Shown here piece by piece: positions 12,727 through 40,600 of a stretch of DNA of 40,600 nt (position 1 is the first letter of the stretch; every line of letters starts with the position of its first letter). The stretch spans positions 1-40,600 of IMG/VR virus record IMGVR_UViG_3300050119_000110, one strand, 5' to 3'. The DNA comes from a virus. Position numbers and translations under genes: made by a program. Under the pieces are notes generated by a model. The model was not told the origin of the DNA and ran no database searches. It worked only from the letters and a program-made list of their open reading frames with translations.

Positions 12727-12881
12727 AGAATGATGAATATTGTATTCCAAGTATTTTTACGAATGAATTTTGTTCAGAATCATTAGAAATAATTAAGGAA
12801 TCTAAATGTTTTGAGAATGGAGCTGTTGCGAATTTAAAATTTACTGATGAGGAATTAAAAGAAATAATTGACTCTAAGTAA
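12723..12881 (+). CDS. Hypothetical small acidic protein
   Basis: A 52-residue acidic protein whose ATG overlaps the previous TGA. It has three cysteines and a short acidic helix at the end (TDEELKEIIDSK). No family recognised. The last codons overlap the -35 of the promoter at 12868-12896, so it closes the portal operon. Confidence 0.55.
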   Translation: MKNDEYCIPSIFTNEFCSESLEIIKESKCFENGAVANLKFTDEELKEIIDSK

Positions 12882-12896
12882 AGTATTTAGTAATAT
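12868..12896 (+). promoter_or_regulatory. Strong promoter with operator-like spacer
   Basis: TTGACT (12868-12873) and TAATAT (12891-12896) are 17 bases apart. TTGACTCTAAGTAAAGTATT closely matches the reverse strand of the divergent control region (TTGACTCAGAGTAAAGTATT, 38851-38870), so the same regulator may bind. Predicted start near 12903; the first terminator lies only 40-60 bases downstream. Confidence 0.7.
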
Positions 12897-12902
12897 AACT
12901 GG

Positions 12903-12966
12903 GCATTAAATATCTTAGAGGATAGTTATGCACCGCACGAAGGGCGCCCTAAAAAGCGCCCTTTTT
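12903..12966 (+). ncRNA. Candidate small RNA 1 (about 64 nt)
   Basis: It is bounded by a strong promoter and a strong intrinsic terminator, with no gene of normal size between. A 20-codon frame with a good AGAGG ribosome site starts at 12928 but runs through the terminator stem, so it would be cut off. The alternative reading is a leader and attenuator for the scaffold and coat genes downstream. Either way it should give a short transcript of about 64 nt. Confidence 0.45.
12942..12966 (+). terminator. Intrinsic terminator 1
   Basis: Perfect stem GGGCGC (12942-12947) with GCGCCC (12956-12961), eight-base loop, then five T. It would end the portal operon transcript and the short RNA started near 12903. 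Confidence 0.85.
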
Positions 12967-12986
12967 GCATTTTTGGGTAATTATAG

Positions 12987-13085
12987 TTGACGAAAAGTAA
13001 AGATAGGAATAGCGTTATACCTTCAGTGCTGATTAGGGATTGGGGCTGAATCGCCGAGAGGGCGCCTTAAAAAAGCGTCCTTTTT
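12987..13085 (+). ncRNA. Candidate small RNA unit 2, diverged copy of unit 1
   Basis: The second unit repeats the plan of the first 118-119 bases later: TTGACG (12987-12992), AGTAAAG (12996-13002), a weak -10 (TAGCGT, 13010-13015, 17-base spacer), about 60 bases, then a nearly identical terminator. The transcript would start near 13022. The middle (13022-13059) is not similar to unit 1. The promoter is much weaker than that of unit 1. Confidence 0.35.
13060..13085 (+). terminator. Intrinsic terminator 2
   Basis: Stem GGGCGC (13060-13065) with GCGTCC (13075-13080), one G-U pair, then five T. The terminator and its flank are a diverged duplicate of terminator 1 (both end CTTTTTGCATTTT). Confidence 0.8.
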
Positions 13086-13112
13086 GCATTTTATGAGTTC
13101 TACCATTTCTAC

Positions 13113-13190
13113 GCCCGAGTACCTCAACACTTAGAGTCCCGCCTACACAAAGAGGGAGGATGCGGAGTGAAAATCCCGCCTCGGGCACCA
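13113..13190 (+). tRNA. Degenerate tRNA-like element (pseudo-tRNA or mimic)
   Basis: A 78-base cloverleaf: acceptor stem GCCCGAG (13113-13119) pairs fully with CTCGGGC (13180-13186), then A and an encoded CCA. The D arm has CTC/GAG with an eight-base loop. The anticodon arm is CCGCC-TACACAA-AGAGG with two mismatches. The T arm is GCGGA/CCCGC with one mismatch and an eight-base loop, GTGAAAAT. The GG of the D loop, T33 and the T-loop TTC are all missing, so it should not work as a normal tRNA; a formal anticodon would be CAC. The acceptor stem resembles that of bacterial tRNA-Leu, but the long variable arm is absent. It could be a decayed tRNA, a tRNA mimic, or the trace of an attachment site. 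Confidence 0.45.
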
Positions 13191-13826
13191 TTCATTTTCA
13201 CTTCGCTTCACTCAAAATAACATTGTATTTTCACCTCCCTATATCCCTTTCAATATCCCCCTCAATAAATATATACATATTGATCAATTCTAATCTTTAT
13301 TCATATTGGGAATGGAATTTTGTCCTGAGCGCATATTTTCGTTCCCGTGTCACAGTGGCGTAATCTATGTAAAATTGAGAGGGGTTACGTATCTGTAAAA
13401 TTTGTAGGGTTAAACCCCCCAACATACCCCCCCTTATCCCTCAGACATACTTCTAAAAATAATATAAGGACAACTCGACCTTTATTTTTTTCATCGAGTT
13501 GTCCTTTCACGTGGTGTTTCACATTGTGAAAGCGTGAAACTAGACGTGAAACTATTTACGGAAATAAACCTTCAAAAATTTCCGAAAATCTCCCGTTGAC
13601 TTTCTGAAAATCACAAGGACCAAACTACCTCGGACTTAACTCCTTTTCCTTTTCTAACAATCTGTCCACATCTATTGCAATGACCGATAATACCTGTTAT
13701 TTTGTGATTATCGGAACTCATCCGTTAAATGAGGCATCTACGCAGCCATGCGGAAAAATGGTCGTTGACTCTAACGTTAATTGAGGCACTTACCGTGACG
13801 GGGAAATAGTCGAGAAGGAATATTTA
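13191..13826. other. Noncoding island with inverted and direct repeats
   Basis: No convincing gene in 636 bases; open frames here have implausible sequences. Visible structure: an imperfect tandem repeat (13363-13387 and 13391-13413); the palindrome GGGTTAAACCC (13407-13417); a long hairpin (13466-13506); five GTGAAA or TTTCAC hexamers in 47 bases (13505-13551); CGGAAAT/ATTTCCG arms (13559-13584); CCGATAAT/ATTATCGG arms (13684-13714); and a direct repeat CGTTAA-TGAGGCA--TAC (13723-13741 and 13775-13793). TTGACTCTAA (13765-13774) equals the first ten bases of the promoter at 12868. It precedes scaffold and coat and may be a late control or structured leader region, a packaging site, or both. 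Confidence 0.6.
13466..13506. other. Long perfect hairpin
   Basis: AAGGACAACTCGA (13466-13478) pairs over 13 bases with TCGAGTTGTCCTT (13494-13506) around a 15-base T-rich loop. There is no T tract after it on the plus strand, so it is not a standard terminator there; on the minus strand the T-containing stretch after it is interrupted. Possibly a protein-binding or RNA-processing structure. Confidence 0.6.
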
Positions 13827-34215: not shown

Positions 34216-35283
34216 ATGCCCATTAAGTCAGTTTCACAAACATTAACCGGAACCGTACAAGTTAATCCCCAAACAGGAGAAGTTTCTCCTCAAGTTACTT
34301 ATATAACTACTACCGATGATTTGGCTACTTTCACGACACCTAACTATATTTATTATTTAAAAGCCCAAGGTTTTACTTTTGGTCCCCAAGATATTGTATG
34401 GGTAACTTGTCCTGCTCCTGATGTAACTCCACTTCAATGGATGACACTACTTTGCAATTTAGATCTGAATGACAACCAAATTACTTTGGTTCCTGATTCC
34501 ACTAATGGAAATGTTATTGGCCCAGTAACCCCAAGCCATATCGCAGTATTTGCTACCATGGAAGGCGCCGTTTCTGACGGGGGCGTTCTTGGAAATGCCG
34601 CTCATAAAAATGTTTCAGATAATACGAAGCCCGCATTAGTATCTATTAATGGCTCAACAGCAATCGGAGACTTAGCTGCATTTTCTGATGTTAATGGCAC
34701 TCTAATTAATAGCGGTGTTACTCCATCTGATAACACTAAGGCACGAGTTGCATCAGTATTTAGCTCTACAGCCGTTGGAAATATTCCTATTTTTAGTGAT
34801 ATCTTAGGAACAATTTCAGATTCAGGAACGGCCCCAAGTAGCACTACATCCCATGTTTCAGCAGTAAGCGGTTCCGTAGTAATAGGACATTTGCCGGTGT
34901 TTAGTGACGTATTGGGAACAATTATTGACTCAGGAATATCCCCATCCGCAACTACATTTGTTTGGAGTGGCATTGCAGGAACTTCACACGCGCTTGCGGC
35001 AGCCAATGGTAATTGGACAGAGAATGCAGGCCTAACAACCTTTACGTTGCCTACGACAATTGCTGCTGGTGATGTATGTGCGGTTGTCGGCTCATCTGCT
35101 GGTGGATGGACAATAACCCAAGGAACTGGACAACAAATAAGGAATGGAACTTCATTAACCACATTAGGATCTGGAGGTTCTTTATCTTCTACTGCTCGAG
35201 GGGATTGTGTATATCTTCTGTGCACTACAGCCAATACTATCTTTATAGTAATCAATAGTTCAGGAAATTTGACGCCAGTTTAA
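34216..35283 (+). CDS. Short fibre paralogue with alternative tip
   Basis: A 355-residue protein with the same N-terminal plan as the previous fibre (TYITTTDDLATFTTPNYIYY against VYVESTDDIADILEPNYLI) and four of the same repeats (GTISDSG, GTIIDSG). Its tip differs: residues 255-355 (TTFTLPTTIAAGDVCAVVGS, AGGWTITQGTGQQIRNGTSL) match the knob-like domain of the protein at 22078-22515. The gene ends at 35283, directly against the stop of a convergent gene, with no terminator visible between them. Confidence 0.8.
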   Translation: MPIKSVSQTLTGTVQVNPQTGEVSPQVTYITTTDDLATFTTPNYIYYLKAQGFTFGPQDIVWVTCPAPDVTPLQWMTLLCNLDLNDNQITLVPDSTNGNVIGPVTPSHIAVFATMEGAVSDGGVLGNAAHKNVSDNTKPALVSINGSTAIGDLAAFSDVNGTLINSGVTPSDNTKARVASVFSSTAVGNIPIFSDILGTISDSGTAPSSTTSHVSAVSGSVVIGHLPVFSDVLGTIIDSGISPSATTFVWSGIAGTSHALAAANGNWTENAGLTTFTLPTTIAAGDVCAVVGSSAGGWTITQGTGQQIRNGTSLTTLGSGGSLSSTARGDCVYLLCTTANTIFIVINSSGNLTPV

Positions 35284-38827: not shown

Positions 38828-38870
38828 TTGACTTCAGGTTAAATATATATAATACTTTACTCTGAGTCAA
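38828..38870. promoter_or_regulatory. Divergent overlapping promoters with shared operator
   Basis: Leftward: -35 TTGACT (reverse of 38865-38870), 17-base spacer, -10 TATATT (reverse of 38842-38847). Rightward, for the XRE gene: -10 TATAAT (38848-38853), with TTGACT at 38828-38833 only 14 bases upstream, so the -35 is uncertain. The operator CTTTACTCTGAGTCAAG (38855-38871) covers the leftward spacer. ATAATACTTTACTCTG (38849-38864) is the exact reverse of the right early promoter element. The plan is like the operator region of a lambdoid switch. Confidence 0.7.
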
Positions 38871-38897
38871 GTATTTATTTCAAATAAAGGTAGCGAA

Positions 38898-39122
38898 ATG
38901 CCGTTGAATGAAAAGATTAAAGAGATTAGAAAGCTATTAGACATGACTCAAATTGAATTAGCCCAGGAATTAGGGCTTAGGATTTCATATGGAAGGAATA
39001 ACAGTAAGAGCAGTCCTAGCATTAGTTCTTACGAGAATGGTCGTAGGGTGCCTTCCGTGGCAGTTTTAACCAAATTAATTAAGCTATGTAAGCGTTATAA
39101 TCTTCTAGTTGAACTTCCATAG
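38898..39122 (+). CDS. XRE-family repressor or Cro-like regulator
   Basis: A 74-residue helix-turn-helix protein. The core reads KIKEIRKLLDMTQIELAQEL then SPSISSYENGRRVPSVAVLT, the classic XRE pattern. Between helices 2 and 3 there is an insert of about 8-10 residues (RISYGRNNSKSS) compared with Cro. There is no C-terminal LexA-like protease domain, so it is not a full CI. An AAGGTAGCGA ribosome site precedes the ATG. It probably binds the CTTTAC-N5-GTAAAG operators next to it and at 1019-1035. Its last 44 bases overlap a convergent gene. Confidence 0.85.
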   Translation: MPLNEKIKEIRKLLDMTQIELAQELGLRISYGRNNSKSSPSISSYENGRRVPSVAVLTKLIKLCKRYNLLVELP

Positions 39123-39399: not shown

Positions 39400-39783
39400 T
39401 TAATTATTTTTAATTGAAAAGTTTTCTTCGGTTATTTCATCTTCAGGGATGTCCATTAAATCTAGAAGTTCTTCATTTGCTTCCAGCAATTCAATCTCCG
39501 CTAATTCTTTTCGCGCTGCATATAAAGCATATCCTCGATTAGGATGCACTCCCTCCATCAAATACCATTCCTCTCTTACAAACTCCTCTAGCAAATGTTT
39601 TTTGATAGAGCGCGATTCAGAAATCTTAATAATTGAAATTACTTTATCCATGCGTTGTTGATAAGGATATTTAAACATGCTGGGAATGTAGATTTGTGGT
39701 GAAGGTTGAGGAACTAATTCAGGAGTTTTTTCAGCTAAAATATCGGAGGACTTTTCTTCGGGAATGGGATGTAAGTTGAGCAT
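39400..39783 (-). CDS. Hypothetical protein, paralogue of 39079-39384
   Basis: A 127-residue protein with AAAAGGATAATATA before the ATG. It has a 35-residue proline-rich start (EKTPELVPQPSPQIYIPS), the shared MFKYPY domain, and an acidic end (LLEANEELLDLMDIPEDEIT). It reads away from the ncRNA promoter at 39816-39843, and the two starts are only 33 bases apart. Function unknown. Confidence 0.65.
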   Translation of the reverse strand: MLNLHPIPEEKSSDILAEKTPELVPQPSPQIYIPSMFKYPYQQRMDKVISIIKISESRSIKKHLLEEFVREEWYLMEGVHPNRGYALYAARKELAEIELLEANEELLDLMDIPEDEITEENFSIKNN

Positions 39784-39815
39784 TATATTATCCTTTTTTT
39801 ATTTTTGTTGGAGTA

Positions 39816-39843
39816 TTGATAGTTGTAACAAGTGCGGTATATT
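39816..39843 (+). promoter_or_regulatory. Promoter of the structured RNA
   Basis: TTGATA (39816-39821) and TATATT (39838-39843) with a 16-base spacer. The expected start is 39850-39851, which is exactly where the closing stem of the RNA begins. The spacer has a small palindrome, TTGTAACAA (39823-39831), a possible regulator site different from the GTAAAG operator. Confidence 0.7.
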
Positions 39844-39849
39844 GGATCC

Positions 39850-39989
39850 AGAAGTTGCCACGCCCCCTTAAGTGCGTTAGAAACACTTAAGGAGAGCGGC
39901 AGACCCGACGGGATTGGTTACCGACTTAGAACAAACCGGATTGTAATTTCGTTGTGTCTGCAAGGCAACTTCTTTTTAAATCTTTTTTT
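39850..39989 (+). ncRNA. Candidate structured noncoding RNA with paired ends
   Basis: Noncoding, between a good promoter and the initiator gene. The 5' end AGAAGTTGCC (39850-39859) pairs over ten bases with GGCAACTTCT (39964-39973), followed by TTTT and, at 39983-39989, TTTTTTT. Inside, CCTTAAGTG (39866-39874) pairs over nine bases with CACTTAAGG (39884-39892), and GCAGAC (39899-39904) with GTCTGC (39956-39961); GGTT/AACC (39916-39937) may add a small stem. This gives a three-way junction of about 128-140 nt. The initiator's ribosome site begins right after the last T, so the RNA is either a separate transcript or an attenuator leader for the initiator. No known RNA family is recognised. Confidence 0.65.
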
Positions 39990-40003
39990 AAGAAGGCGCC
40001 TAA

Positions 40004-40600
40004 ATGTCCTATATTTTCGACTTAATTAATCATCTCCACAGTGAGAATGATTGCTATTCCTTCCTTACTGCTCGCGAACAAATCCTGTTAATCAAAATAG
40101 TTAATGCCATTGGCAATAAAGAAGAATGGTATCATTCTTACCCAAAACTAGCCCAAATGGGAAAGATTAGCGTTAGGCATGCTATTAAATTTATGAATAA
40201 ATTTGTTGCAAATAATATCCTCCTTAAAAAAACTTCATACAAAAATCACTACCAAATTCATCCTGAATTCATCCAAAACATCTCCAATAAGAAACAAAAG
40301 ACAGTGACCCTAGGGTCACCGTGTCAGGAAGGTCACCGTGACCCACGGGTCACCCTTTTTCCAAAAGACAGTGACCCTGGCGACACCCCAACCGTGACCC
40401 ACGGGTCACCCCTATATAAGGAAGAAAAGAGTAAGAGAAAAGTAAAAGAGCAGAAGAGTAATGCGCGCAAGCGCGCTTCTCTCTCTCTCATTTCATTTTC
40501 TTTTTTTCCAAAGCCAGAACATTACGAACTTGGCCGAAAAAAGGGCATGGACAAAACCATGGTGAATAACTGCACAGCTAAGTTCATTGAGCATTATATG
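40004..40600 (+). CDS. Replication initiator (O/DnaD-like), N-terminal part; continues at base 2
   Basis: First part of the 314-residue protein that continues through the circular junction to 475. AAGAAGG (39990-39996) lies seven bases before the ATG. Residues 1-90 form a winged helix (FLTAREQILLIKIVNAIGN, SYPKLAQMGKISVRHAIKFM, then NKFVANNILLKK), the usual DNA-binding domain of phage O and DnaD-type initiators. Residues about 95-160 are a linker whose DNA carries the iterons, as in lambda O. After this comes the domain described for 2-475. The expected role is to bind the internal origin and load the replisome. No primase, helicase or polymerase gene is visible, so host enzymes are needed. 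Confidence 0.8.
   Translation, partial: MSYIFDLINHLHSENDCYSFLTAREQILLIKIVNAIGNKEEWYHSYPKLAQMGKISVRHAIKFMNKFVANNILLKKTSYKNHYQIHPEFIQNISNKKQKTVTLGSPCQEGHRDPRVTLFPKDSDPGDTPTVTHGSPLYKEEKSKRKVKEQKSNARKRASLSLISFSFFPKPEHYELGRKKGMDKTMVNNCTAKFIEHYM
40295..40410. repeat. Palindromic iterons, probable replication origin
   Basis: Inside the initiator gene. GTGACCCTAGGGTCAC (40304-40319) is a perfect palindrome; GTGACCCACGGGTCAC occurs twice (40338-40353 and 40394-40409); GGTCACCGTGACC (40331-40343) overlaps one of them. CAAAAGACAGTGACCCT is repeated directly at 40295-40311 and 40362-40378, 67 bases apart. An AT- and purine-rich stretch (40412-40460) follows, suited to unwinding. The plan equals lambda ori within O. 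It falls in the linker, where the protein can tolerate the DNA constraint. Confidence 0.75.
40474..40600. repeat. Terminal overlap, right copy (circular closure)
   Basis: Identical to bases 1-127. Directly before and into it is GCGCGCAAGCGCGC (40463-40476), a short inverted repeat, followed by a CT-rich run. Confidence 0.95.

Follow-up and report, generated by a model that had tools for sequence, protein, structure and literature searches.

Structured RNA upstream of the replication initiator gene

The window, meaning the whole stretch of DNA that was analysed, is the entire 40.6-kb IMG/VR viral record of an uncultured phage. A replication initiator gene lies at its right edge, and weak matches to two replication-initiation families, phrog_270 (E 3.5e-4) and phrog_678 (E 5.9e-4), point to its function. 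The start codon of this gene is found 30 nt 3′ of a structured RNA, and the following features were recognized around it, all on the plus strand:

39816–39843 (+), candidate sigma-70 promoter TTGATA-16-TATATT, 10/12 match
39850–39973 (+), structured RNA of 124 nt, closed three-way junction, top folding outlier of the contig
39850–39859 (+), 5′ closing arm AGAAGTTGCC, 10/10 pairs with 39964–39973
39866–39892 (+), 9-bp hairpin CCTTAAGTG-CGTTAGAAA-CACTTAAGG with a 9-nt loop, arms 39866–39874/39884–39892
39899–39961 (+), second arm, a 6-bp stem GCAGAC/GTCTGC (39899–39904/39956–39961) plus an inner 11-pair stem
39964–39973 (+), 3′ closing arm GGCAACTTCT, with the ribosome-binding region as its alternative partner
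39973–39989 (+), interrupted U-rich stretch TTTTTAAATCTTTTTTT, no terminator reported
39990–40000 (+), ribosome-binding region AAGAAGGCGCC, in which 39991–40000 matches the 5′ arm at 8/10 positions
40004–40600 (+), O-like replication initiator gene, truncated at the contig end

To the left, the genes are mostly on the opposite strand and include one for a Sak4-like protein, and an HTH repressor-like gene is located nearby at 38898–39122; the RNA thus sits in what looks like a divergent early control region, in sense orientation to the initiator. A sequence-only reading of this DNA had placed a structured RNA of no known family immediately before the initiator gene, and this was upheld both by the phrog matches and by Rfam 15, which gives no match in the window at the gathering cut-off (best E 5.5, outside the RNA). 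Inside the initiator gene, four iteron-like repeats with GTGACCC/GGGTCAC palindromes are present at 40295–40410, resembling the origin layout of lambda O. Elsewhere in the window, a region of some 1.1 kb (12730–13825) that separates the portal gene from the next large gene lacks a convincing gene. It contains a pair of almost identical terminator-like hairpins, whose repeats at 12951 and 13070 share 96% identity, along with two strong folds of z −3.3 and z −4.3; these may represent small RNA genes.

Fold and chance level

The RNA fold at 39850–39973 is real and lies far beyond chance. The 140-nt region reaches a minimum free energy (MFE) of −55.6 kcal/mol (z −6.7), which none of 200 shuffles equalled, and the 124-nt RNA is the top GC-corrected folding outlier among 1349 plus-strand windows of the contig when these are ranked by GC regression. 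The perfect 10-bp closing stem described earlier is present, as are the two further perfect stems of 9 and 6 bp that complete a three-way junction; the inner 11-pair stem (39906–39916/39944–39954), with its four G·U pairs, had been overlooked. Taken singly, a 10-bp long-range pair arises in about 1% of intergenic shuffles (n = 5000) and occurs 8 times in the window; for a 9-bp hairpin the frequency among these shuffles is likewise about 1%. The two together appear in none of the 5000. The whole RNA closes only once the 3′ arm emerges: its energy is −39.8 kcal/mol when it extends to 39961 and −55.0 kcal/mol when it extends to 39973. This closed three-way junction is a significant, uncatalogued structure and probably a leader.

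Promoter and U tracts

The −10 box of the candidate promoter lies 7 nt before the RNA and sets +1 near 39850, so that the position and spacing proposed earlier for a good promoter starting the RNA at 39850 do fit; the match itself, however, is no commoner than in shuffles, with seven promoter-like matches found against 5.6 ± 2.1 expected. From sequence alone the promoter is plausible and statistically indistinguishable from background. T tracts do follow the closing stem as had been noticed (39973–39977 and 39983–39989), but they are split by AAATC, and a terminator scan reports no terminator-like site at 39964–39990. The G+C-rich stem, short loop and uninterrupted U tract expected of an intrinsic terminator or attenuator are not what is seen at the closing stem.

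Search for homologues

Searches of IMG/VR with stem patterns recovered no homologue of the window RNA, and BLAST of the region against annotated phages and plasmids gave nothing, or chance matches at E 8. Three IMG/VR contigs with the exact closing-stem pattern and two with the inner hairpin pattern were rejected, all five being chance repeats in apparent coding DNA (long-range ones for the closing stem). A single-sequence covariance model matches only the window RNA itself among 90 sources totalling 799 kb, made up of the window and the relatives' loci described below. The initiator, the terminase and the neighbouring 127-aa protein, used as baits, recovered no relative in the collections searched, and the portal bait yielded one short contig at 47% identity; the phage is thus without a close relative in these collections. 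As no homologue was found, covariation of the window RNA's stems cannot be assessed, and the RNA is a singleton class, separate from the RNAs of relatives.

Leader RNAs in Sak4-type relatives

Relatives were defined as loci sharing the Sak4 gene, of which 80, with 59–74% identity in that gene, were kept. From the stretch before their initiator genes, the same slot as that of the window RNA, a leader RNA termed class I was recognized, for example at these four loci and at about 25 others (covariance model R1, alignment A6):

L069:1317–1460 (−), class I leader RNA
L084:2684–2829 (−), class I leader RNA
L037:3243–3393 (−), class I leader RNA
L017:3113–3257 (−), class I leader RNA

Class I is about 150 nt long and consists of a 5′ H-type pseudoknot hairpin, P2 (loop CCGCCAAG), P3 and a likely second pseudoknot. 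With model R1, 21 of the 80 loci give a class I match at E below 1e-6; a further 10 loci, taken from a pattern scan, also match, and several of the matches are near-duplicates. When 25 distinct sequences are compared, pairing is intact in 97.8% of cells across P2, P3 and the proposed pseudoknot, and 41 cells have both partners changed. The covariation score of 0.255 compares with 0.105 in shuffles, none of 500 reaching it, and in slid controls the paired fraction falls to 22–44%. This alignment was fitted to P2 and P3 and hence favours both, but a structure-free MAFFT alignment of 14 class I sequences gives the same picture. It is P2 and P3 that supply the covariation support. The proposed pseudoknot has four core pairs that are invariant and thus neutral either way, and the 5′ H-type pseudoknot shows slight covariation only (14-sequence alignment). 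Rfam returned no match to the L069 member even at E 5.

Many class I members lie directly behind a TAnnnT or YATAAT −10-like box, and in 13 of the 21 loci with a downstream frame found the start codon follows the model end by 13–18 nt, the remaining loci having a longer gap or a short intervening frame. The genes 3′ of class I match replication-initiation families in all ten cases tested and are diverse among themselves. No terminator is seen in the class I leaders, which run directly into the ribosome-binding site (RBS) of the initiator. A genome-wide scan with the class I pattern gave 95 stretches, of which 80 were searched with the model and one proved real; it lies on a contig binned to a Planctomycetota genome, which is not good host evidence. 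The window RNA shares the class I position, directly before an initiator gene and behind a −10-like box, yet the best R1 score at 39400–40200 of the window with filters off is 0.9 bits, versus 52–163 bits for clear members. The string CTTAGAACAA(A)CCGGA, common to the window RNA and class I, resembles homology and was set aside as unproven, the covariance model giving no match.

Class II is a closed element upstream of the initiator, seen at L087:1313–1394 (+) with a hairpin GGGCATAG...CTACGCCC and the motif TTAGGAACA. It has three members only (L008, L029/L087 and L047), its fold energy in L087 is not significant (z 0), and an nhmmer profile of the three does not match the window RNA, giving only a chance match at 35191. 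L029/L087 carries the only initiator detectably related to that of the window. Dense inverted-repeat arrays with CCGACAGAC, CGGACAGAC and GGTTAACT units were also observed at L042:36–208, L043:292–560 and L059:2358–2544; these are probably origin or operator arrays.

A second uncatalogued RNA was observed directly upstream of the Sak4 gene in 40 of the 80 relatives (model R3, E up to 0.002; alignment A7), for example at these three loci in addition to 37 others:

L077:4870–4969 (+), Sak4-leader RNA
L081:4904–4969 (+), Sak4-leader RNA
L012:4885–4975 (+), Sak4-leader RNA

In the Sak4 leader a closing stem (AGATAAAC/GTTTATCT) is combined with two hairpins, an inner one that varies and a small one, GTCC-TTAAAT-GGAC. 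On a structure-free MAFFT alignment, 98% of cells are paired, 9 of the 19 pairs have changes on both sides and no shuffle reaches the covariation score. No Rfam family attains its gathering score in the loci scanned; the best weak match to a bacterial family is the ribosomal S15 leader, which scores 16.3 bits where the cut-off is 39.5. This RNA is absent from the window, where R3 reaches at best 9.3 bits (E 1.1) at 38845–38886, away from the window RNA. With a class I leader in about one quarter of the relatives' loci and a Sak4 leader in half, the earlier remark on the rarity of such RNAs in phages of this size does not apply to this group.

A probable cis-acting leader and a possible Shine-Dalgarno gate

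The slot before the initiator repeatedly holds a structured RNA, which covaries in many related phages. Promoter, RNA from +1, short spacer and initiator succeed one another in the window as they do in class I, the fold being different, and on this shared anatomy a cis-acting leader is the simplest reading. The window RNA most likely controls the initiator in cis, and we regard it as probably a 5′ leader of the initiator mRNA rather than an independent small RNA.

The sequence around the ribosome-binding site suggests a translation switch at this point. The segment AGAAGGCGCC (39991–40000) is an 8/10 copy of the 5′ arm, a likeness with P 0.004 when the spacer is shuffled and 0.024 when the Shine-Dalgarno (SD) sequence is kept fixed, which is suggestive only; it could also stem from the AGAAG of the arm being SD-like itself. 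As the RBS copies the 5′ arm, the 3′ arm is able to pair with either one, with duplex energies of −16.4 kcal/mol for the 5′ arm and −12.8 kcal/mol for the SD region. When the 5′ arm is blocked in silico, the 3′ arm moves onto the SD at a cost of 5.7 kcal/mol and the unpaired probability of the SD core becomes approximately 0. Among 166 ATG frames of at least 100 codons in the contig, it is the upstream region of the initiator with which the 3′ arm pairs best. In the ground-state model the SD is already mostly paired with the U tract; thus, ON and OFF states may differ little. No comparable SD alternative was seen in class I, where a pairing proposed by eye was dropped, the spacer being constant while P2 changes.

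While the fold, its position, the alternative pairing and the same-slot leaders of relatives were obtained by computation, transcription, switching and the signal are what we infer, as follows. Transcription from the promoter at 39816–39843 would begin in the 5′ closing arm, and the leader would fold as a closed three-way junction with the initiator start codon 30 nt further on. In the closed form the 5′ arm would hold the 3′ arm, leaving the SD region under weak A-U pairing only. If the 5′ arm were captured, trimmed or still unpaired, the 3′ arm would instead pair with AAGAAGGCGCC, hiding the SD. The balance may be shifted at the two side arms, by an RNA, by a protein or by the state of RNA polymerase, and pairing of the 5′ end may additionally make the mRNA more stable. 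Given that the RNA is a leader, such an SD gate has about an even chance of being correct; the full explanation, a leader with this gate or a close cis variant, is held tentatively, at somewhat below an even chance.

Alternative explanations

The sequence-only reading had favoured a free promoter-to-terminator RNA, and in the corresponding explanation the closing stem and U tracts terminate transcription, either releasing a 124–140-nt RNA or acting as an attenuator that limits initiator transcription. The stem does end at TTTT followed by a T7 tract, and the RNA closes just as its 3′ arm emerges. Against this, the terminator scan is silent there, the base of the stem is A-U-rich, the loop measures 104 nt, the U tract is broken by AAATC, and class I leaders occupy the same slot and run into the initiator RBS with no terminator; nor was any antisense target found, there being no complementarity of at least 11 nt to the rest of the phage. 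The free RNA was therefore not borne out and is less likely than the cis-acting leader, and termination in either form is considered unlikely. The main cis rival is a protein-independent antitermination leader like the putRNA of HK022, in which the nascent RNA would bind polymerase and early-operon terminators would be resisted. The putL RNA of HK022 is found directly downstream of an early promoter and comprises about 70 nt in two stem-loops (PMC9378689). The window RNA similarly begins behind an early promoter, and in relatives one and the same class I RNA precedes very different initiator genes, as would be expected of a module acting on polymerase and not on a single mRNA. A putRNA is, however, characterized by two adjacent stem-loops that bind the zinc-binding domain of the RNA polymerase beta′ subunit, whereas the fold here is a closed three-way junction, and the contig end puts downstream terminators out of view; antitermination appears rather improbable.

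An origin of the pattern outside RNA function is less probable still. DNA-level inverted repeats, whether a repressor operator or an origin hairpin between divergent early promoters, could yield an RNA fold as a by-product, and the position between the leftward operon and the initiator, the nearby repressor-like gene and the palindromic 9-bp repeat would agree with this. The four G·U pairs of the inner 11-pair stem, however, exist on the plus strand only, folding of the minus strand is somewhat weaker (z −5.6 vs −6.7), and a 10-bp stem with 104 nt between its arms is not operator-like, making this explanation quite improbable. A chance structure without function gains from the lack of homologues, in that conservation cannot be demonstrated, and from the fact that a whole-contig scan gives some outliers anyway; the z-score, the top rank among all contig windows, the shuffles that never contain both stems and the conserved RNA in the same slot of relatives argue against it, and it is judged the least probable of all.

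Turning back to the cis-acting leader, if it gates the initiator, an RNA fold within the mRNA that encodes the initiator would set the timing of phage replication. In the uncultured Sak4 phages, a large group, the gap between early promoter and initiator could be reserved for RNA control modules that replace one another (class I, class II and the three-way junction) and time the start of replication without a dedicated protein regulator, with the window RNA founding its own class; this broader idea is speculative, being possible rather than probable. The same-slot structured RNA, together with two strongly covarying families that Rfam does not contain, points to RNA control as a little-explored layer, which would cover replication and recombination genes of small uncultured phages.

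Comparison with known systems

The OOP RNA of lambda, with which the window RNA was first compared for its location near a replication gene, runs antisense to cII up to an ordinary terminator; the window RNA differs in being sense to the initiator, with no terminator or target found. ROOL and GOLLD are, like the window RNA, ornate RNAs found in phages, but are far larger and form homo-oligomers (PMC12286853), and the window has no Rfam match. The putL and putR RNAs of HK022 resemble the window RNA in being structured and in lying close to a promoter, at the 5′ end of an early phage transcript or not far from it; they differ in having two adjacent stem-loops in about 70 nt, versus a closed, three-way fold of 124 nt. 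In class II a closing stem likewise surrounds inner hairpins, although the profile of its three members does not match. Class I is pseudoknotted, with P2 and P3 in place of a three-way junction, and its model R1 does not match the window; it nevertheless has the same arrangement as the window RNA, in which a −10 box, a structured RNA (about 150 nt in class I), a short spacer and a replication-initiator gene follow one another.
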